In this document: positions 2,552 to 8,308 of the stretch, piece after piece
How the letters are laid out: every line of letters begins with the position of its first letter
Numbering within the stretch: position 1 is the first letter of the stretch
Origin: Patescibacteria group bacterium
GTDB lineage: Bacteria > Patescibacteria > UBA1384 > XYA2-FULL-43-10 > 1-14-0-10-43-13
Direction: 5' to 3'
Length of the DNA: 8,308 nucleotides
NCBI GenBank assembly: GCA_023484645.1
Contig: JAMCZZ010000025.1
Location: 1 to 8,308, forward strand
Translations under genes and position numbers: made by a program
The notes under the pieces: generated by a model
Told to the model about the DNA's origin: nothing
Seen by the model: only the letters and a program-made list of their open reading frames with translations
The model's database searches: none

Positions 2552-2581
2552 ATTATATCTAATTACTTGTTCTTAGAGCAA
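2552..2581 (-). promoter_or_regulatory. Putative leaderless promoter of galE inside the priA 3' end
   Basis: Minus strand: TTGCTC (2581-2576) lies 18 nt before a perfect TATAAT (2557-2552), which ends 6 nt before the galE ATG at 2545. The -35 is made of the last priA codons. A transcript from here would begin at or within a base or two of the ATG, that is, leaderless. Read-through from priA is also possible. Confidence 0.55.
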
Positions 2582-4600
2582 ATCAACAGGATCTGTATCC
2601 CAAATTAAATAAGGATTTATTTTAAATATTTCAGTAATCTTGGGGTTCGGTAAAATATTTGTTTTAATTATTATATGATAACGGAACTTATTATTAATTT
2701 TATTTAAAAAGCATGGTCCCGGTCCAATATGGTCGATCTCATTTTGTGATAATTTTTGCGCGACCGCGAAAATATTATCACAAGCTTTTTGTTTGTTTTT
2801 ATCTTCGGAAATCACTCTGATTAAATAGCAAAATGGGGGATAGTTAAATTTCTCTCTTTCTTTTATTTCTTCTTTATAGAAATCTTTATAGTTATGATCG
2901 GCTGCAAACTGGATTGCGCTTGAGTTGGGCCAATATGTTTGAATAATAGTTCTGCCAACGTTGTCTTTTCTTCCGCTGCGGCCGGAGACCTGGGTTAAGA
3001 GTGAAAAAGTTTTTTCAGAGGCTTTAAAATGAGGTAAATGTAAACCGACATCGGCGGAAATTACCCCAACTAAATCAACAGTTCCAATGTCCAAACCTTT
3101 TGCTAGAATTTGGGTTCCAATTAATATATCGATTTTTCCCTTTTGTAAATCATCATACAACTTCATATATTCACCTTTGTTTTGCAGGCTTTTGGAATCT
3201 ATTTTTCTGATTCGAGCTTTTGGAAATAATCTTTTTATTTCTAATTCAATTTTATCTACACCTGCCCCAAAAAATTTAATTCTTGAACTCTTGCAAACGG
3301 GGCAAATTGAGGGAACGGGTACTTTATAATCACAATGATGGCAATTCAAAATGTGTTTATCATAATTTGTATGATAAACCATTGGAATATTGCATCGAGG
3401 GCAATTTATAATCTCACCACATTCTCGGCAGGAAACAAAAGTCGCCATTCCGCGTCGATTTAAGAAAAGTATCGCATGGCGCTTATTCTTTAAAACTTCG
3501 GCAATATTTTTTTGTAACTCCAATGAAATCGGCGAAAAATTATCATGCTTTATCTCGTTTTTTAAATCTATAATTCTGGCAGGCGGTAAAATCAATTTTT
3601 GATATCTTGATTTTAATTCGAAGAGGTCAAAAATTTCCTTTTTGGCTTTATAGTAAGTCTCAATTCTAGGTGTTGCAGTTCCTAGCACCAACAGGGCGCC
3701 CAATCTATCAGCAATTTTCTCAGCCAGATCTACGGCGTGATATCGAGGATCTTTTTCTTGTTTATAGGCATCTTCTTGCTCTTCGTCTATAATGATCAAA
3801 CCGATATTAACATTGGGGACTAGTAGAGCGGAACGTGGACCGATAATAATTTTTTTATCACCGACGGTAAATTGCTTATAGTTTAAATATTTTTCTGATT
3901 TTGAAAGGCCGGAGTGTAATAAGCAAGCTTGATCTGGAAAAATTTGTTCAAACTTTTCTACAGTCTGAGGCGTCAGCATTATTTCCGGCACTAATACAAC
4001 AACTTGTTTATTTATTTTGATTGCTTCTTTGGCTAGCTTTAAATAAATTTCAGTTTTTCCGCTTCCTGTTACGCCATGAATTAACGCCGGCTTATTGTCC
4101 AAGGCTGTAAGTCGAGAACTGCCATCATTTTTAGTTCTCTCCGCCGGTTGGCGGATCGAACAATGAGCTAATTTATCTTTTAATTTCTGAAATATTTCTT
4201 CTTGCTCAGAGGTTAATCTTATTTCGTGATTCGTGATTCGTGATTCGTGATTCGCACTTTGAGTTCTCGGACGAGAAATTATTGGTGGCAAAAATAGTGA
4301 GATGGCCTCACCAAGAGAGCACAAGTAATATTTGGAAATCCATTTTGCAATATCTAAGTATTGTTTAGGAACACTAAAATCAGGGTTAATTGACTTAATT
4401 TCCTTAAGTTCATAATCAACCCGTATTCTGTTATCTGTATTCTGTATTCTTAAAATAACTCCCCTAATATTATTTTTTCCGAACGGAATTTCAACAATCG
4501 AGCCAATCCGAATCTGGCTTTGCAAGTTCTCCGGCACGATATATGAAAAAATATTTTTGTCTGGCGCTGTTCTTTTTTCGGGAATTATTTCTGCAATCAT
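2573..4600 (-). CDS. priA: Primosomal protein N', replication restart helicase PriA
   Basis: PriA is a superfamily 2 3'-to-5' DNA helicase that reloads the replisome at stalled forks. The N-terminal 3'-end-binding domain (about 1-105) starts with MIAEIIPEKR. Walker A is GVTGSGKTE (176-184); motif II is DEEQ (272-275) where most PriA proteins have DEEH; GTATP follows at 307-311. Eight cysteines (391, 394, 400, 403, 420, 423, 433, 436) form the two zinc sites. IGTQILAKG (494-502) and QVSGRSGR (537-544) are the late helicase motifs. Length 675 is within the family range. Three additions fall outside motifs: a heptamer array at residues 51-60, another at 116-127, and a double-hairpin insertion at 149-163. 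The first 38 bases are duplicated at 4981-5018. No Shine-Dalgarno is seen; a -10 box ends 6 nt upstream of the ATG, suggesting a leaderless message. Confidence 0.96.
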   Translation of the reverse strand: MIAEIIPEKRTAPDKNIFSYIVPENLQSQIRIGSIVEIPFGKNNIRGVILRIQNTDNRIRVDYELKEIKSINPDFSVPKQYLDIAKWISKYYLCSLGEAISLFLPPIISRPRTQSANHESRITNHEIRLTSEQEEIFQKLKDKLAHCSIRQPAERTKNDGSSRLTALDNKPALIHGVTGSGKTEIYLKLAKEAIKINKQVVVLVPEIMLTPQTVEKFEQIFPDQACLLHSGLSKSEKYLNYKQFTVGDKKIIIGPRSALLVPNVNIGLIIIDEEQEDAYKQEKDPRYHAVDLAEKIADRLGALLVLGTATPRIETYYKAKKEIFDLFELKSRYQKLILPPARIIDLKNEIKHDNFSPISLELQKNIAEVLKNKRHAILFLNRRGMATFVSCRECGEIINCPRCNIPMVYHTNYDKHILNCHHCDYKVPVPSICPVCKSSRIKFFGAGVDKIELEIKRLFPKARIRKIDSKSLQNKGEYMKLYDDLQKGKIDILIGTQILAKGLDIGTVDLVGVISADVGLHLPHFKASEKTFSLLTQVSGRSGRKDNVGRTIIQTYWPNSSAIQFAADHNYKDFYKEEIKEREKFNYPPFCYLIRVISEDKNKQKACDNIFAVAQKLSQNEIDHIGPGPCFLNKINNKFRYHIIIKTNILPNPKITEIFKINPYLIWDTDPVDLL
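4114..4155. repeat. Double-hairpin insertion inside priA
   Basis: Two abutting inverted repeats: GAGAACT (4114-4120) with AGTTCTC (4133-4139), loop 12 nt, and TCCGCC (4140-4145) with GGCGGA (4150-4155), loop GGTT. They encode PriA residues 149-163, in the linker between the 3'-end-binding domain and Walker A, where homologues are normally shorter. This looks like a small palindromic repeat that inserted in frame and was kept as a tolerated linker. Confidence 0.5.
4222..4254. repeat. Heptanucleotide tandem repeat ATTCGTG in the priA linker
   Basis: About four and a half copies of a 7-nt unit: TTTCGTG, then ATTCGTG three times, then ATTCG. Because 7 is not a multiple of 3 the translation repeats every three units, and PriA residues 116-127 read as NHESRIT followed by a partial second NHE. 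The array lies between the N-terminal domain and the helicase core. Confidence 0.85.
4423..4450. repeat. Heptanucleotide tandem repeat GTATTCT in the priA N-terminal domain
   Basis: Four 7-nt units: GTATTCT, GTTATCT, GTATTCT, GTATTCT. They encode PriA residues 51-60 (RIQNTDNRIR on the minus strand), probably a surface loop of the 3'-end-binding domain. The unit differs in sequence but not in length from the arrays at 4222 and 5025. Confidence 0.8.
4563..4600. repeat. Direct repeat copy 1: first 38 bases of priA
   Basis: Matches 4981-5018 at 33 of 38 positions without gaps, in the same orientation, 418 bp away. The repeat begins precisely at the priA ATG and ends in codon 13; flanking bases on either side do not match. 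Together the copies bracket the 84-codon gene and its promoter and terminator. Confidence 0.85.
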
Positions 4601-4606
4601 AAGTCA

Positions 4607-4636
4607 ATACTACCAACAAGATTGAAAATATGCCAA
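4607..4636 (-). promoter_or_regulatory. Putative leaderless promoter of priA
   Basis: Minus strand: TTGGCA (4636-4631), 18-nt spacer, TAGTAT (4612-4607), ending 6 nt before the priA ATG at 4600. It overlaps, on the opposite strand, the promoter proposed for the small membrane-protein gene, so the two may compete. Confidence 0.45.
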
Positions 4637-4650
4637 ATTTTTGGTATCTT
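4622..4650 (+). promoter_or_regulatory. Putative sigma-70 promoter of the small membrane-protein gene
   Basis: TTGAAA (4622-4627), 17-nt spacer, TATCTT (4645-4650). Transcription would start near 4657, about 10 nt before the Shine-Dalgarno. Confidence 0.5.
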
Positions 4651-4665
4651 CTATCGAGATTCGAA

Positions 4666-4675
4666 AAGGGGGGAG
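4666..4675 (+). promoter_or_regulatory. Strong ribosome-binding site that fixes the start at 4682
   Basis: AAGGGGGGAG followed by a 6-nt spacer and ATG at 4682. This supports the 84-codon reading over an in-frame ATG at 4622, which overlaps the proposed -35 box and has no Shine-Dalgarno. Confidence 0.75.
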
Positions 4676-4681
4676 CCTAAG

Positions 4682-4936
4682 ATGACAACAACGGCAAAAT
4701 CATTTTTTGGCGAGGTTCTCGATATCTTTATGGGATTTTTGATTTTGGGAATCTGCTACACCGTAATAGCTTTGGCGTATTTGGCTTGCGGGCTTGTTTT
4801 CGGTTTAGTATTCGCTGCCATCGCCTATTTTTGGCCTTTTGGCAATGCGGCGCCGGCAGACGTATCGATTGCCATAGGAGCTATTGTTGCACTATTTGGA
4901 GCATTTCTTTGTCGGATGGAGCATTTTCCTGTTTAG
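4682..4936 (+). CDS. Small membrane protein of unknown function
   Basis: I do not recognise this 84-residue protein. Its N terminus (MTTTAKSFFGEVLDIF) is short and polar, followed by a hydrophobic stretch at 15-50 that could be one long or two closely spaced membrane helices, a turn with WPFGNAAPAD (51-60), and a further helix at 61-77 ending in CRMEHFPV. It has no recognisable motif and no signal peptidase site. By hand count the gene is about 44% G+C, while sampled neighbouring 60-base coding stretches are mostly near 30%, which suggests a separate origin. It has its own promoter, a strong Shine-Dalgarno and an intrinsic terminator, and the unit is bracketed by the 38-bp direct repeat derived from the priA start. 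I am fairly sure it is a gene, because signals and ORF agree, and have no view of its function. Confidence 0.72.
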   Translation: MTTTAKSFFGEVLDIFMGFLILGICYTVIALAYLACGLVFGLVFAAIAYFWPFGNAAPADVSIAIGAIVALFGAFLCRMEHFPV

Positions 4937-4963
4937 TCAGGGAAAACTCTATCATCAAGTTGG

Positions 4964-4996
4964 GCGCCTAGCTATAGCTAGGCGCTGTTCTTTTTT
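4964..4996 (+). terminator. Intrinsic terminator of the small membrane-protein gene
   Basis: A perfect 22-nt palindrome (arms GCGCCTAGCTA and TAGCTAGGCGC, 4964-4985) is followed by TGTTCTTTTTT. It begins 27 nt after the stop codon. The right-hand GGCGC and the whole T-run belong to the direct-repeat copy at 4981-5018, so the duplicated priA start supplies half of this terminator. There is no T-run on the other strand. Confidence 0.8.
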
Positions 4997-5018
4997 CTAG
5001 GATTATTTCCACAATCAT
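4968..5018 (-). pseudogene. Decayed copy of the priA 5' end
   Basis: Read on the minus strand, ATG at 5018 gives MIVEIILEKRTAPSYS and then TAG at 4968-4970. The true PriA starts MIAEIIPEKRTAPD, so 11 of the first 13 residues agree. The five base differences in 38 include two amino-acid changes, as expected for a copy no longer under selection. Similarity (4981-5018) covers only ATG to codon 13. It may be the original priA start, displaced by the inserted unit, or a duplication made on insertion. Confidence 0.75.
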
Positions 5019-5024
5019 GTCTCT

Positions 5025-5055
5025 AGTATCGAGTATTTAGTATTAAGTATCAAGT
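5025..5055. repeat. Heptanucleotide tandem repeat AGTATNN, intergenic
   Basis: Units AGTATCG, AGTATTT, AGTATTA, AGTATCA and then AGT: period 7, with the last two bases variable. It lies directly beyond the decayed priA start and is the third array of period 7 in the window, each with a different unit sequence. Confidence 0.75.
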
Positions 5056-7479: not shown

Positions 7480-8229
7480 ATGTATCCAGTCTTGTTTAAA
7501 ATTGGAAGTTTAAATTTTTACTCTCATGGTGTCCTAATTGTGCTGGGAATCACTTTGGGAAGCATAATTACATATTCTCTTGCAAAAAGAAGAGGACTGG
7601 ATAATGCTTTTCTTGTGGATAATATGATATACACCCTTTTGTTTGGAGTGATTGGTGCAAGGATTACTTACTTTTTGCTATATCACAGCCAATTTAGTAA
7701 TTTCTCTCAAATTTTTTTCATTTGGGAAGGCGGTTTAGTTTCTTATGGCGGATTTATTCTTGGCGGGCTTACCTTTTTTGTTCTTCTAAAAACTCAAAAG
7801 CAGCCGATTTTGGAATGGTTTGACATATTAGCAACAGGATTCCCTTTTGGCTTATTTTTAGGTAGGCTGGGGGACATTTTGGCGGGTGATTACTCTAGTG
7901 CCCAAAAATTTACAGAACTTACCTCTTTTCGTAACGGTCTTCCTCTTCCGTTGTATGAGGCTGTCTTATGTTTATTTATTTTTTTAATTGTTCTTTTGGT
8001 TTTCTTAAAGAAAGAAAAACTGGTTGCTGGAACACCCTTTTCCCTGATGGTCTTGCTTTATTCTGGAGGTAGATTTATTATTGATTTCTGGAGAGATGAA
8101 ACGGTTTTGATTTGGAAGTTATCATTTGGCCAGGTTTTTGGTTTAGTAATATTTTTAGCATCGGGCATAGCAATAACATTATTGCTTAGGGCGCGACAGG
8201 AAGGAGATAATCATGAACTTATCAGCTAG
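7480..8229 (+). CDS. lgt: Prolipoprotein diacylglyceryl transferase
   Basis: Lgt is a multi-pass membrane enzyme that moves diacylglycerol from phosphatidylglycerol to the lipobox cysteine of prolipoproteins. The N terminus MYPVLFKIGSLNFYSHGVL is typical, and about seven hydrophobic segments follow. Landmarks: GARITY (59-64), WEGGLVSYGG (82-91), FGLFLGRLGDILAGD (123-137), LPLYE (156-160), GGRFIIDFWRDE (196-207). By alignment to E. coli from memory, Arg143 and Arg239 are kept (Arg129, Arg198), but Tyr26 is His16, His103 is Tyr89, Asn146 is Asp132, Glu151 is Asp137, Gly154 is Ser140 and Glu243 is Asp202. It is therefore a divergent family member; either the clade uses a shifted active site or it acts on a different lipid or acceptor. 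Its last 17 nt overlap the next gene, which suggests translational coupling. Confidence 0.9.
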   Translation: MYPVLFKIGSLNFYSHGVLIVLGITLGSIITYSLAKRRGLDNAFLVDNMIYTLLFGVIGARITYFLLYHSQFSNFSQIFFIWEGGLVSYGGFILGGLTFFVLLKTQKQPILEWFDILATGFPFGLFLGRLGDILAGDYSSAQKFTELTSFRNGLPLPLYEAVLCLFIFLIVLLVFLKKEKLVAGTPFSLMVLLYSGGRFIIDFWRDETVLIWKLSFGQVFGLVIFLASGIAITLLLRARQEGDNHELIS

Positions 8230-8308
8230 TTTTCTCGAAAAACAAAAAAAGTTAATGCTTAAAGAGAGAGAAAGAATTGAAGAGAAAATAAAAAAACATA
8301 AGACAGCC
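8213..8308 (+). CDS. N terminus of a possible DksA/TraR-like protein (cut by window edge)
   Basis: Only 32 codons are visible, starting at ATG 8213 and open to the right edge. AAGGAG (8201-8206), 6 nt upstream, is a good ribosome-binding site. The peptide begins MNLSASFLEKQKKLMLKER and continues as a charged, lysine- and glutamate-rich helix likely to form a coiled coil. That opening resembles the N-terminal helix of DksA/TraR zinc-finger proteins, which bind RNA polymerase, but the zinc motif would lie outside the window, so the identity is tentative. The start lies 17 nt inside the lgt 3' end in another frame. Confidence 0.6.
   Translation, partial: MNLSASFLEKQKKLMLKERERIEEKIKKHKTA

Follow-up and report, generated by a model that had tools for sequence, protein, structure and literature searches.

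In a stretch of 8,308 nucleotides from a Patescibacteria group bacterium (contig JAMCZZ010000025.1 of assembly GCA_023484645.1, called the window below), the beginning of the replication-restart gene priA is present in two direct copies. Between them lie 380 bases with an open reading frame (ORF) of 84 codons. The window is probably a complete contig, since this ORF and PriA are each listed on a single contig of 8308 bases. The duplication, its limits and its overlap with a terminator-like site are directly visible. As their cause we tentatively favour a one-off, homology-assisted illegitimate insertion of the 380-base orphan-gene segment after priA codon 12, which would have provided priA with a substitute start and promoter; this is our leading explanation, held with slightly less than even confidence. 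The insertion seems to be private to this lineage. From the features listed here we infer the empty ancestral site, the recombination route, the identity of the original copy and the expression of the ORF.

2573 to 4600, minus strand: priA, 675 amino acids, the gene with the duplicated start (ORF; Pfam PriA_3primeBD, DEAD, Helicase_C, Zn_ribbon_PriA and PriA_C).
4563 to 4600, minus strand: repeat copy 1, from which priA now starts; it spans codons 1-12 of the gene and two further bases, MIAEIIPEKRTA (repeat comparison).
4601 to 4980, no strand: inserted segment, 380 bases, 42.9% G+C (span between the copies; boundaries taken from the repeat).
4607 to 4636, minus strand: possible new promoter of priA, TTGGCA-18-TAGTAT, which ends 6 bases short of the ATG (consensus scan only).
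4622 to 4650, plus strand: possible promoter of the 84-codon ORF, sigma-70-like TTGAAA-17-TATCTT (consensus scan only).
4667 to 4675, plus strand: Shine-Dalgarno-like AGGGGGGAG, 6 bases before the ATG (direct reading).
4682 to 4936, plus strand: 84-codon ORF; its hydrophobic product is modelled as a helical hairpin (ORF list; protein search; single-sequence AlphaFold2).
4963 to 4996, plus strand: intrinsic terminator, stem 4963-4986 followed by GTTCTTTTTT (scan; fold; palindrome).
4981 to 5018, minus strand: repeat copy 2; priA probably started here before this start was displaced, and the frame now closes after 16 codons (MIVEIILEKRTAPSYS, then a stop) (repeat comparison, upstream codons, Leu7).
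5019 to 5055, minus strand: tract of the heptamer type that we regard as the ancestral priA upstream sequence (period-7 repeat at 5014-5055; comparison of upstream extensions).

The two copies match at 33 of 38 positions and form the top ungapped 38-mer pair of the whole window. The best pairs in eight Markov-1 surrogates of the window reached only 26-27 of 38, and the repeat is exactly as a preliminary description of this DNA had reported it. It begins precisely at the priA ATG (4600, minus strand) and, on the priA strand, ends after GCGCC, in codon 13. The copies share no similarity upstream of the ATG or past GGCGC: after GCGCC, copy 1 continues as priA and copy 2 passes into TAGCTATAGCTAGGCGC. 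All five differences fall within the 21 bases adjoining the ATG, and there are none in the 17-base block next to the terminator (p = 0.04 if they were randomly spread). This block is perfect at both borders of the insert (2 matches in the window vs 0.06 expected, with up to three mismatches allowed), and its version in copy 2 is antisense to codons 8-12 and the start of codon 13 of priA.

Because copy 2 runs into TAGCTATAGCTAGGCGC past GCGCC, a perfect 22-base palindrome is formed at 4964-4985 (GCGCCTAGCTA/TAGCTAGGCGC). Copy 2 supplies, with its first 17 bases, the T-tract (GTTCTTTTTT) as well as the last part of the right-hand stem arm, a point absent from the preliminary description. On the plus strand the palindrome and GTTCTTTTTT together are a strong intrinsic-terminator-like site by scan, and the region 4937-5018 folds with z = -4.37. 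A priA start would thus provide, through its antisense strand, part of the terminator of the small ORF. This role offers a simple reason why the 17 bases of copy 2 are unchanged, although the same pattern would be expected of an attachment core. The promoter, Shine-Dalgarno sequence and terminator that had been proposed for the unit could all be located by scan or direct reading, but similar sites are frequent between 4500 and 5300 (4 promoter-like sites vs 1.9 expected, 3 terminator-like sites vs 0.9 expected), so that the individual calls have to be taken with caution. Since the candidate priA promoter ends 6 bases before the ATG, the priA messenger RNA could be nearly leaderless. A match to the Rfam trpB motif at 4915-4997 (30.3 bits vs a gathering score of 59, E = 0.039) was dismissed as generic hairpins. 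Its alignment does outline a possible second hairpin (GATGGAG...CTCTATC) at 4915-4954 of the plus strand, which comprises the ORF end and stop codon and lies just before the terminator.

Which of the two starts is the older one was examined in the relatives of PriA, using 119 proteins from the best 120 of 7700 matches of the protein search. Some of these proteins were predicted with an in-frame extension before the true Met, so that the upstream sequence could be seen in translation; a fixed pattern picked eight such extensions. The codons upstream of copy 2 outscored those upstream of copy 1 in all eight. For the nearest relative (P0003), copy 2 ranked 10 and copy 1 ranked 15,123 among 16,546 placements, and for P0006 the ranks were 160 and 15,869 of 16,582; P0016 (42 vs 9,152) and P0010 (131 vs 14,593) gave similar results. 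The two best placements for P0006 lie inside the tract upstream of copy 2 (5026-5050), and the second and third best for P0016 overlap it. Before its Met, the nearest relative has LDTQSLIIYAKD, where copy 2 has LDT*Y*ILDTRD and copy 1 LAYFQSCW*Y*L. If copy 2 is the displaced start, P0003 looks like an unoccupied site, as far as can be judged from the protein.

The repeat itself points in the same direction. Residue 7 is Pro in 108 of the 119 relatives and Leu in none (two have a gap); copy 1 encodes Pro and copy 2 Leu. Ala3 and Pro7 of copy 1 are the commonest residues among the relatives. Ala12 is common to both copies and rare elsewhere, being present in 7 of the 119 relatives and in a single one of the nearest 25, and the 17-base block at both ends may therefore come from one resident sequence. 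Because the upstream codons fit the relatives better and Leu7 occurs in none of them, copy 2 is probably the displaced original start, and the start now used by priA probably arrived with the insert. This probable direction in time, with copy 2 as the older start, is new relative to the preliminary description. We also considered a donor-like divergent stretch after the PriA start, but this was uninformative, since residues 13-130 are more variable than residues 131-675 in 7 of 7 relatives (P0003-P0009) too.

The ORF stands out by its composition. Its G+C content, previously noted as raised, is indeed 44.3%, vs 35.0-36.9% for the five other genes measured, and only 5 of 7420 stretches of 255 bases outside the insert are as G+C-rich. 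Besides overlapping frames of up to 104 codons, it is the only open frame between the repeats that is plausible as a gene. Its length alone does not prove a gene, because an ATG-started ORF of at least 84 codons also turned up in 79 of 2000 surrogates made from the 380-base insert. Judging from the combined sequence features, the ORF is likely a real gene. The single-sequence AlphaFold2 model (mean pLDDT 78) shows helices at residues 3-50 and 57-81. Apart from the ORF itself, no protein was found at E <= 10 in a database of 5.8 billion proteins (27 candidates scored), by a search that needs shared 5-residue words and that a fast-evolving relative could escape. One PriA relative (P0008, 71%) is listed on a contig of 798,787 bases, yet the protein search gave no relative of the ORF. 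No Pfam family was assigned to it at E 0.001 and no PADLOC family; matches to PHROG 16092 (E = 0.006), PHROG 17279 (E = 0.53) and, under the cut-off, NCBIfam VirB2 (E = 0.29) are weak membrane-protein matches and were dismissed.

The favoured insertion could have proceeded as follows. If copy 2 is original, the ancestral site would have had a single priA start after a ACTAGATAC-type tract. The DNA that came in (or was copied) would have joined at one end via a matching priA start sequence, and at the other via the short G+C-rich match GGCGC; the anchor-like priA start and the GGCGC junction are both present at the insert ends. The latter joint would have fused a hairpin arm of the insert to the former priA start, whose antisense strand is rich in T. 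This start would then have been stranded at 4981-5018, its first 17 bases completing the terminator of the inserted gene, while transcription of priA would begin at a promoter within the insert. A match to the priA start together with a GGCGC joint would account for the exact limit of the repeat and for its two diverged starts, as well as for the replacement promoter and a gene that looks foreign. The clustering of the differences, the raised G+C content of the ORF and the lack of ORF relatives in the protein search also support a one-off insertion.

Several points weigh against it. Copy 2 was never the best placement of the window in the comparison of extensions (ranks 10, 160, 131, 620, 309, 42, 973 and 2954), and P0079, a distant relative, matches neither of the two copies (scores -9 and -29). 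The upstream likeness rests on low-complexity tracts of the heptamer type, and the extensions are few, chosen by a pattern and non-independent; because of these repeats, the upstream-codon evidence is suggestive only. Val3 of copy 2 is common among the relatives (31 of 119), so that decay is marked by residue 7 alone. The p value of 0.04 is weak, and the clustering fits a terminator constraint or an attachment core equally well. A 5-base match such as GGCGC may arise by chance. Finally, no donor was found, and close relatives were compared at the protein level only.

It is possible, but in our view rather unlikely, that the unit is a remnant or satellite of a site-specific integrative element targeting the priA 5' end, with the 17-base block GGCGCTGTTCTTTTTTC as attachment core. 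With such an element would come codons 1-7 and a promoter to restore priA; its integrase would act in trans or have been lost. The perfect block at both borders fits this idea, and the anatomy is that of the dusA-specific islands described in the excerpted text of PMC4482086. On the other hand, the insert has only 380 bases and an orphan cargo, and no recombinase was detected by a Pfam scan of six proteins out of the 18 ORFs listed for the window. The unit had already been described as lacking a recombinase, which agrees with the 84-codon ORF being its sole plausible gene and having no Pfam match. The only transposition-related name that came up, TniB, was a P-loop cross-match of Der.

Searches for other units, or for a phage or plasmid carrier, in viral_contigs and in phage and plasmid records yielded none. 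In viral_contigs there were no exact occurrences of the terminator palindrome, no hits to a degenerate priA-start pattern and no ORF relatives (17 stretches fitted a pattern made for the ORF search, none was confirmed). The 17-base core was found in three viral contigs, with unlike surroundings and, by a rough estimate, about as often as expected by chance. A distant DNA search with 4582-5040 gave no match in 50,697 phage or 72,556 plasmid records. When viral_contigs was scanned with a 26-member PriA alignment, the 11 loci obtained were weak matches (32-39%); a PriA scan of genome contigs returned eight distant loci of 29-45% identity, none from Patescibacteria and none of use for comparing what lies upstream of priA (their titles name Bacillota, Clostridiales, Bacilli, Caenarcanum, Mycoplasma, Holosporaceae and Oscillospiraceae). 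A family search in the genome of L005 recovered just that genome's own match and the controls. We also considered a transposon or miniature inverted-repeat element (MITE), and rejected it because no terminal inverted repeats span the insert ends: none of the seven inverted-repeat pairs in 4563-5018 (seed 6, minimum 10) links them, the closest being 4626-4638 with 4894-4906 (77%).

The preliminary description had offered two origins, an element that targets a gene end and restores it or a one-off duplication with insertion. The implied direction, with a substitute start at priA and the displaced original on the far side, is supported by the upstream codons and residue 7. The possible mobility is unsupported, given that no recombinase was found among the proteins scanned and no carrier or second unit in viral contigs, phages or plasmids. 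Because neither recurrence nor a recombinase appeared in the material searched, we rank a one-off event above an integrative element.

An intragenomic or target-site-type duplication, in which 38 bases were copied at insertion or by replication template switching and copy 2 then drifted by 13%, appears unlikely. It would explain the uncommon Ala12 codon in both copies and the non-conserved Leu7 of copy 2, and template switching could also have produced the perfect palindrome that adjoins the breakpoint. However, it leaves the origin of the 380 bases unexplained, and the differences are clustered. Blind copying would reach the ATG exactly only by coincidence, and is thus disfavoured, since such a limit is what would be expected from matched coding sequence.

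More speculative, and in our judgement improbable, is a minimal restoring cassette of about 400 bases, non-autonomous and equipped with one membrane-protein gene, a divergent promoter and half a terminator. It would insert site-specifically into the priA start, use the antisense strand of this severed start to complete its terminator, give priA a substitute start and promoter, and free it from its former leader. That copy 2 is kept as a working part, either in a read-through plus-strand transcript antisense to the priA start or as a leader peptide, is very improbable: its 17 antisense bases are perfectly kept, but the terminator arm end and T-tract are a simpler reason for their preservation, and the terminator would end most transcripts inside the block. 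We give equally little credence to the idea that the metagenome contig is a chimera assembled from two related strains, for although the ORF is listed on one contig only, as a single instance, copy 2 leads into a functional-looking terminator rather than a second priA, and both copies carry Ala12.

Upstream of copy 2, on the minus strand, the region 5238-5074 has a promoter-like TTGACA-17-TACGAT (10/12), after which some 130 bases fold stably. For 5205-5070 the fold has z = -2.69 (1 of 200 shuffles was as stable), and it ends in a hairpin with a T-rich tail (5098-5074). No Rfam family matched the minus-strand region 5238-5074. It is possible that 5205-5074 encodes a small RNA with its terminator, or is a former priA leader.

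Around the insert and its plus-strand ORF, the window has der/engA and lgt on the plus strand and, on the minus strand, priA and the genes of a galE-like epimerase and a signal peptidase. The closest PriA relative is 83% identical; among the best 120 matches, those with an organism name are Patescibacteria or Berkelbacteria, apart from one plain 'bacterium'. Heptamer tandem repeats also occur inside the priA coding sequence, at 4223-4254 (TTCGTGA) and 4423-4450 (GTATTCT), and are related to the tract at 5014-5055 upstream of copy 2. Within the first 75 residues, from which such inserts were judged, the relatives P0007, P0011, P0013, P0025, P0030, P0081, P0094 and P0110 have differing inserted peptides at residues ~45-75. 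These linker inserts (e.g. CHPEQSEVFRG) look like translated dispersed repeats, as if the N-terminal linker of PriA were tolerant of in-frame repeat insertion. A 24-base inverted repeat, 96% complementary, connects 7959-7982 inside lgt with 8285-8308 at the very end of the contig and may be an assembly-end artefact.

If the insertion was a one-off event, the locus would be a clean example of how an orphan gene can be gained without loss of the invaded neighbour, the displaced start being reused as a terminator. If the unit proved mobile, it would be a very small element that restores a 5' end; our literature search listed none such for this phylum.

Among known systems, integron gene cassettes consist of a single small gene followed by an inverted repeat. 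The priA insert resembles them in having a small gene and an inverted repeat, and a GTTRRRY heptamer lies at 4959-4965. Unlike a cassette, it carries its own promoter-like site, and there is no integrase among the proteins scanned. We rejected this class, as GTTRRRY occurs at chance level in the window (16 vs 14.1 expected) and no paired R'' box could be seen by eye.

In homology-facilitated illegitimate recombination, homology joins one end of the foreign DNA and a few G+C-rich bases join the other, which places foreign DNA beside resident sequence. The priA locus would share this arrangement, with an anchor-like priA start at one end and GGCGC at the other; it differs in the very short homology and in that no donor was found.

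In layout, the locus would correspond to the dusA 5'-end genomic islands, of which the excerpted text of PMC4482086 reports imperfect direct repeats (mapped sites of 26-28 bp, a 21 bp consensus, and a 19 bp repeat in a dusB case). There, the island contributes the 5' end of the gene together with putative promoter signals, and excision reunites the gene with its original end (PMC4482086). Compared with the islands as described there (PMC4482086), the priA unit is unsupported as a mobile element: it has 380 bases, one orphan ORF, no integrase between the repeats and a single instance; its target is priA, and its repeat runs exactly from the ATG. Like the islands (PMC4482086), it lies near the 5' end of a housekeeping gene between imperfect direct repeats, one of them inside the target gene (33/38 here). 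In the islands the new 5' end and a putative promoter are on the inserted side and the original 5' end is at the far border (PMC4482086); for priA such a layout is suggested by the comparison of upstream extensions and by residue 7.

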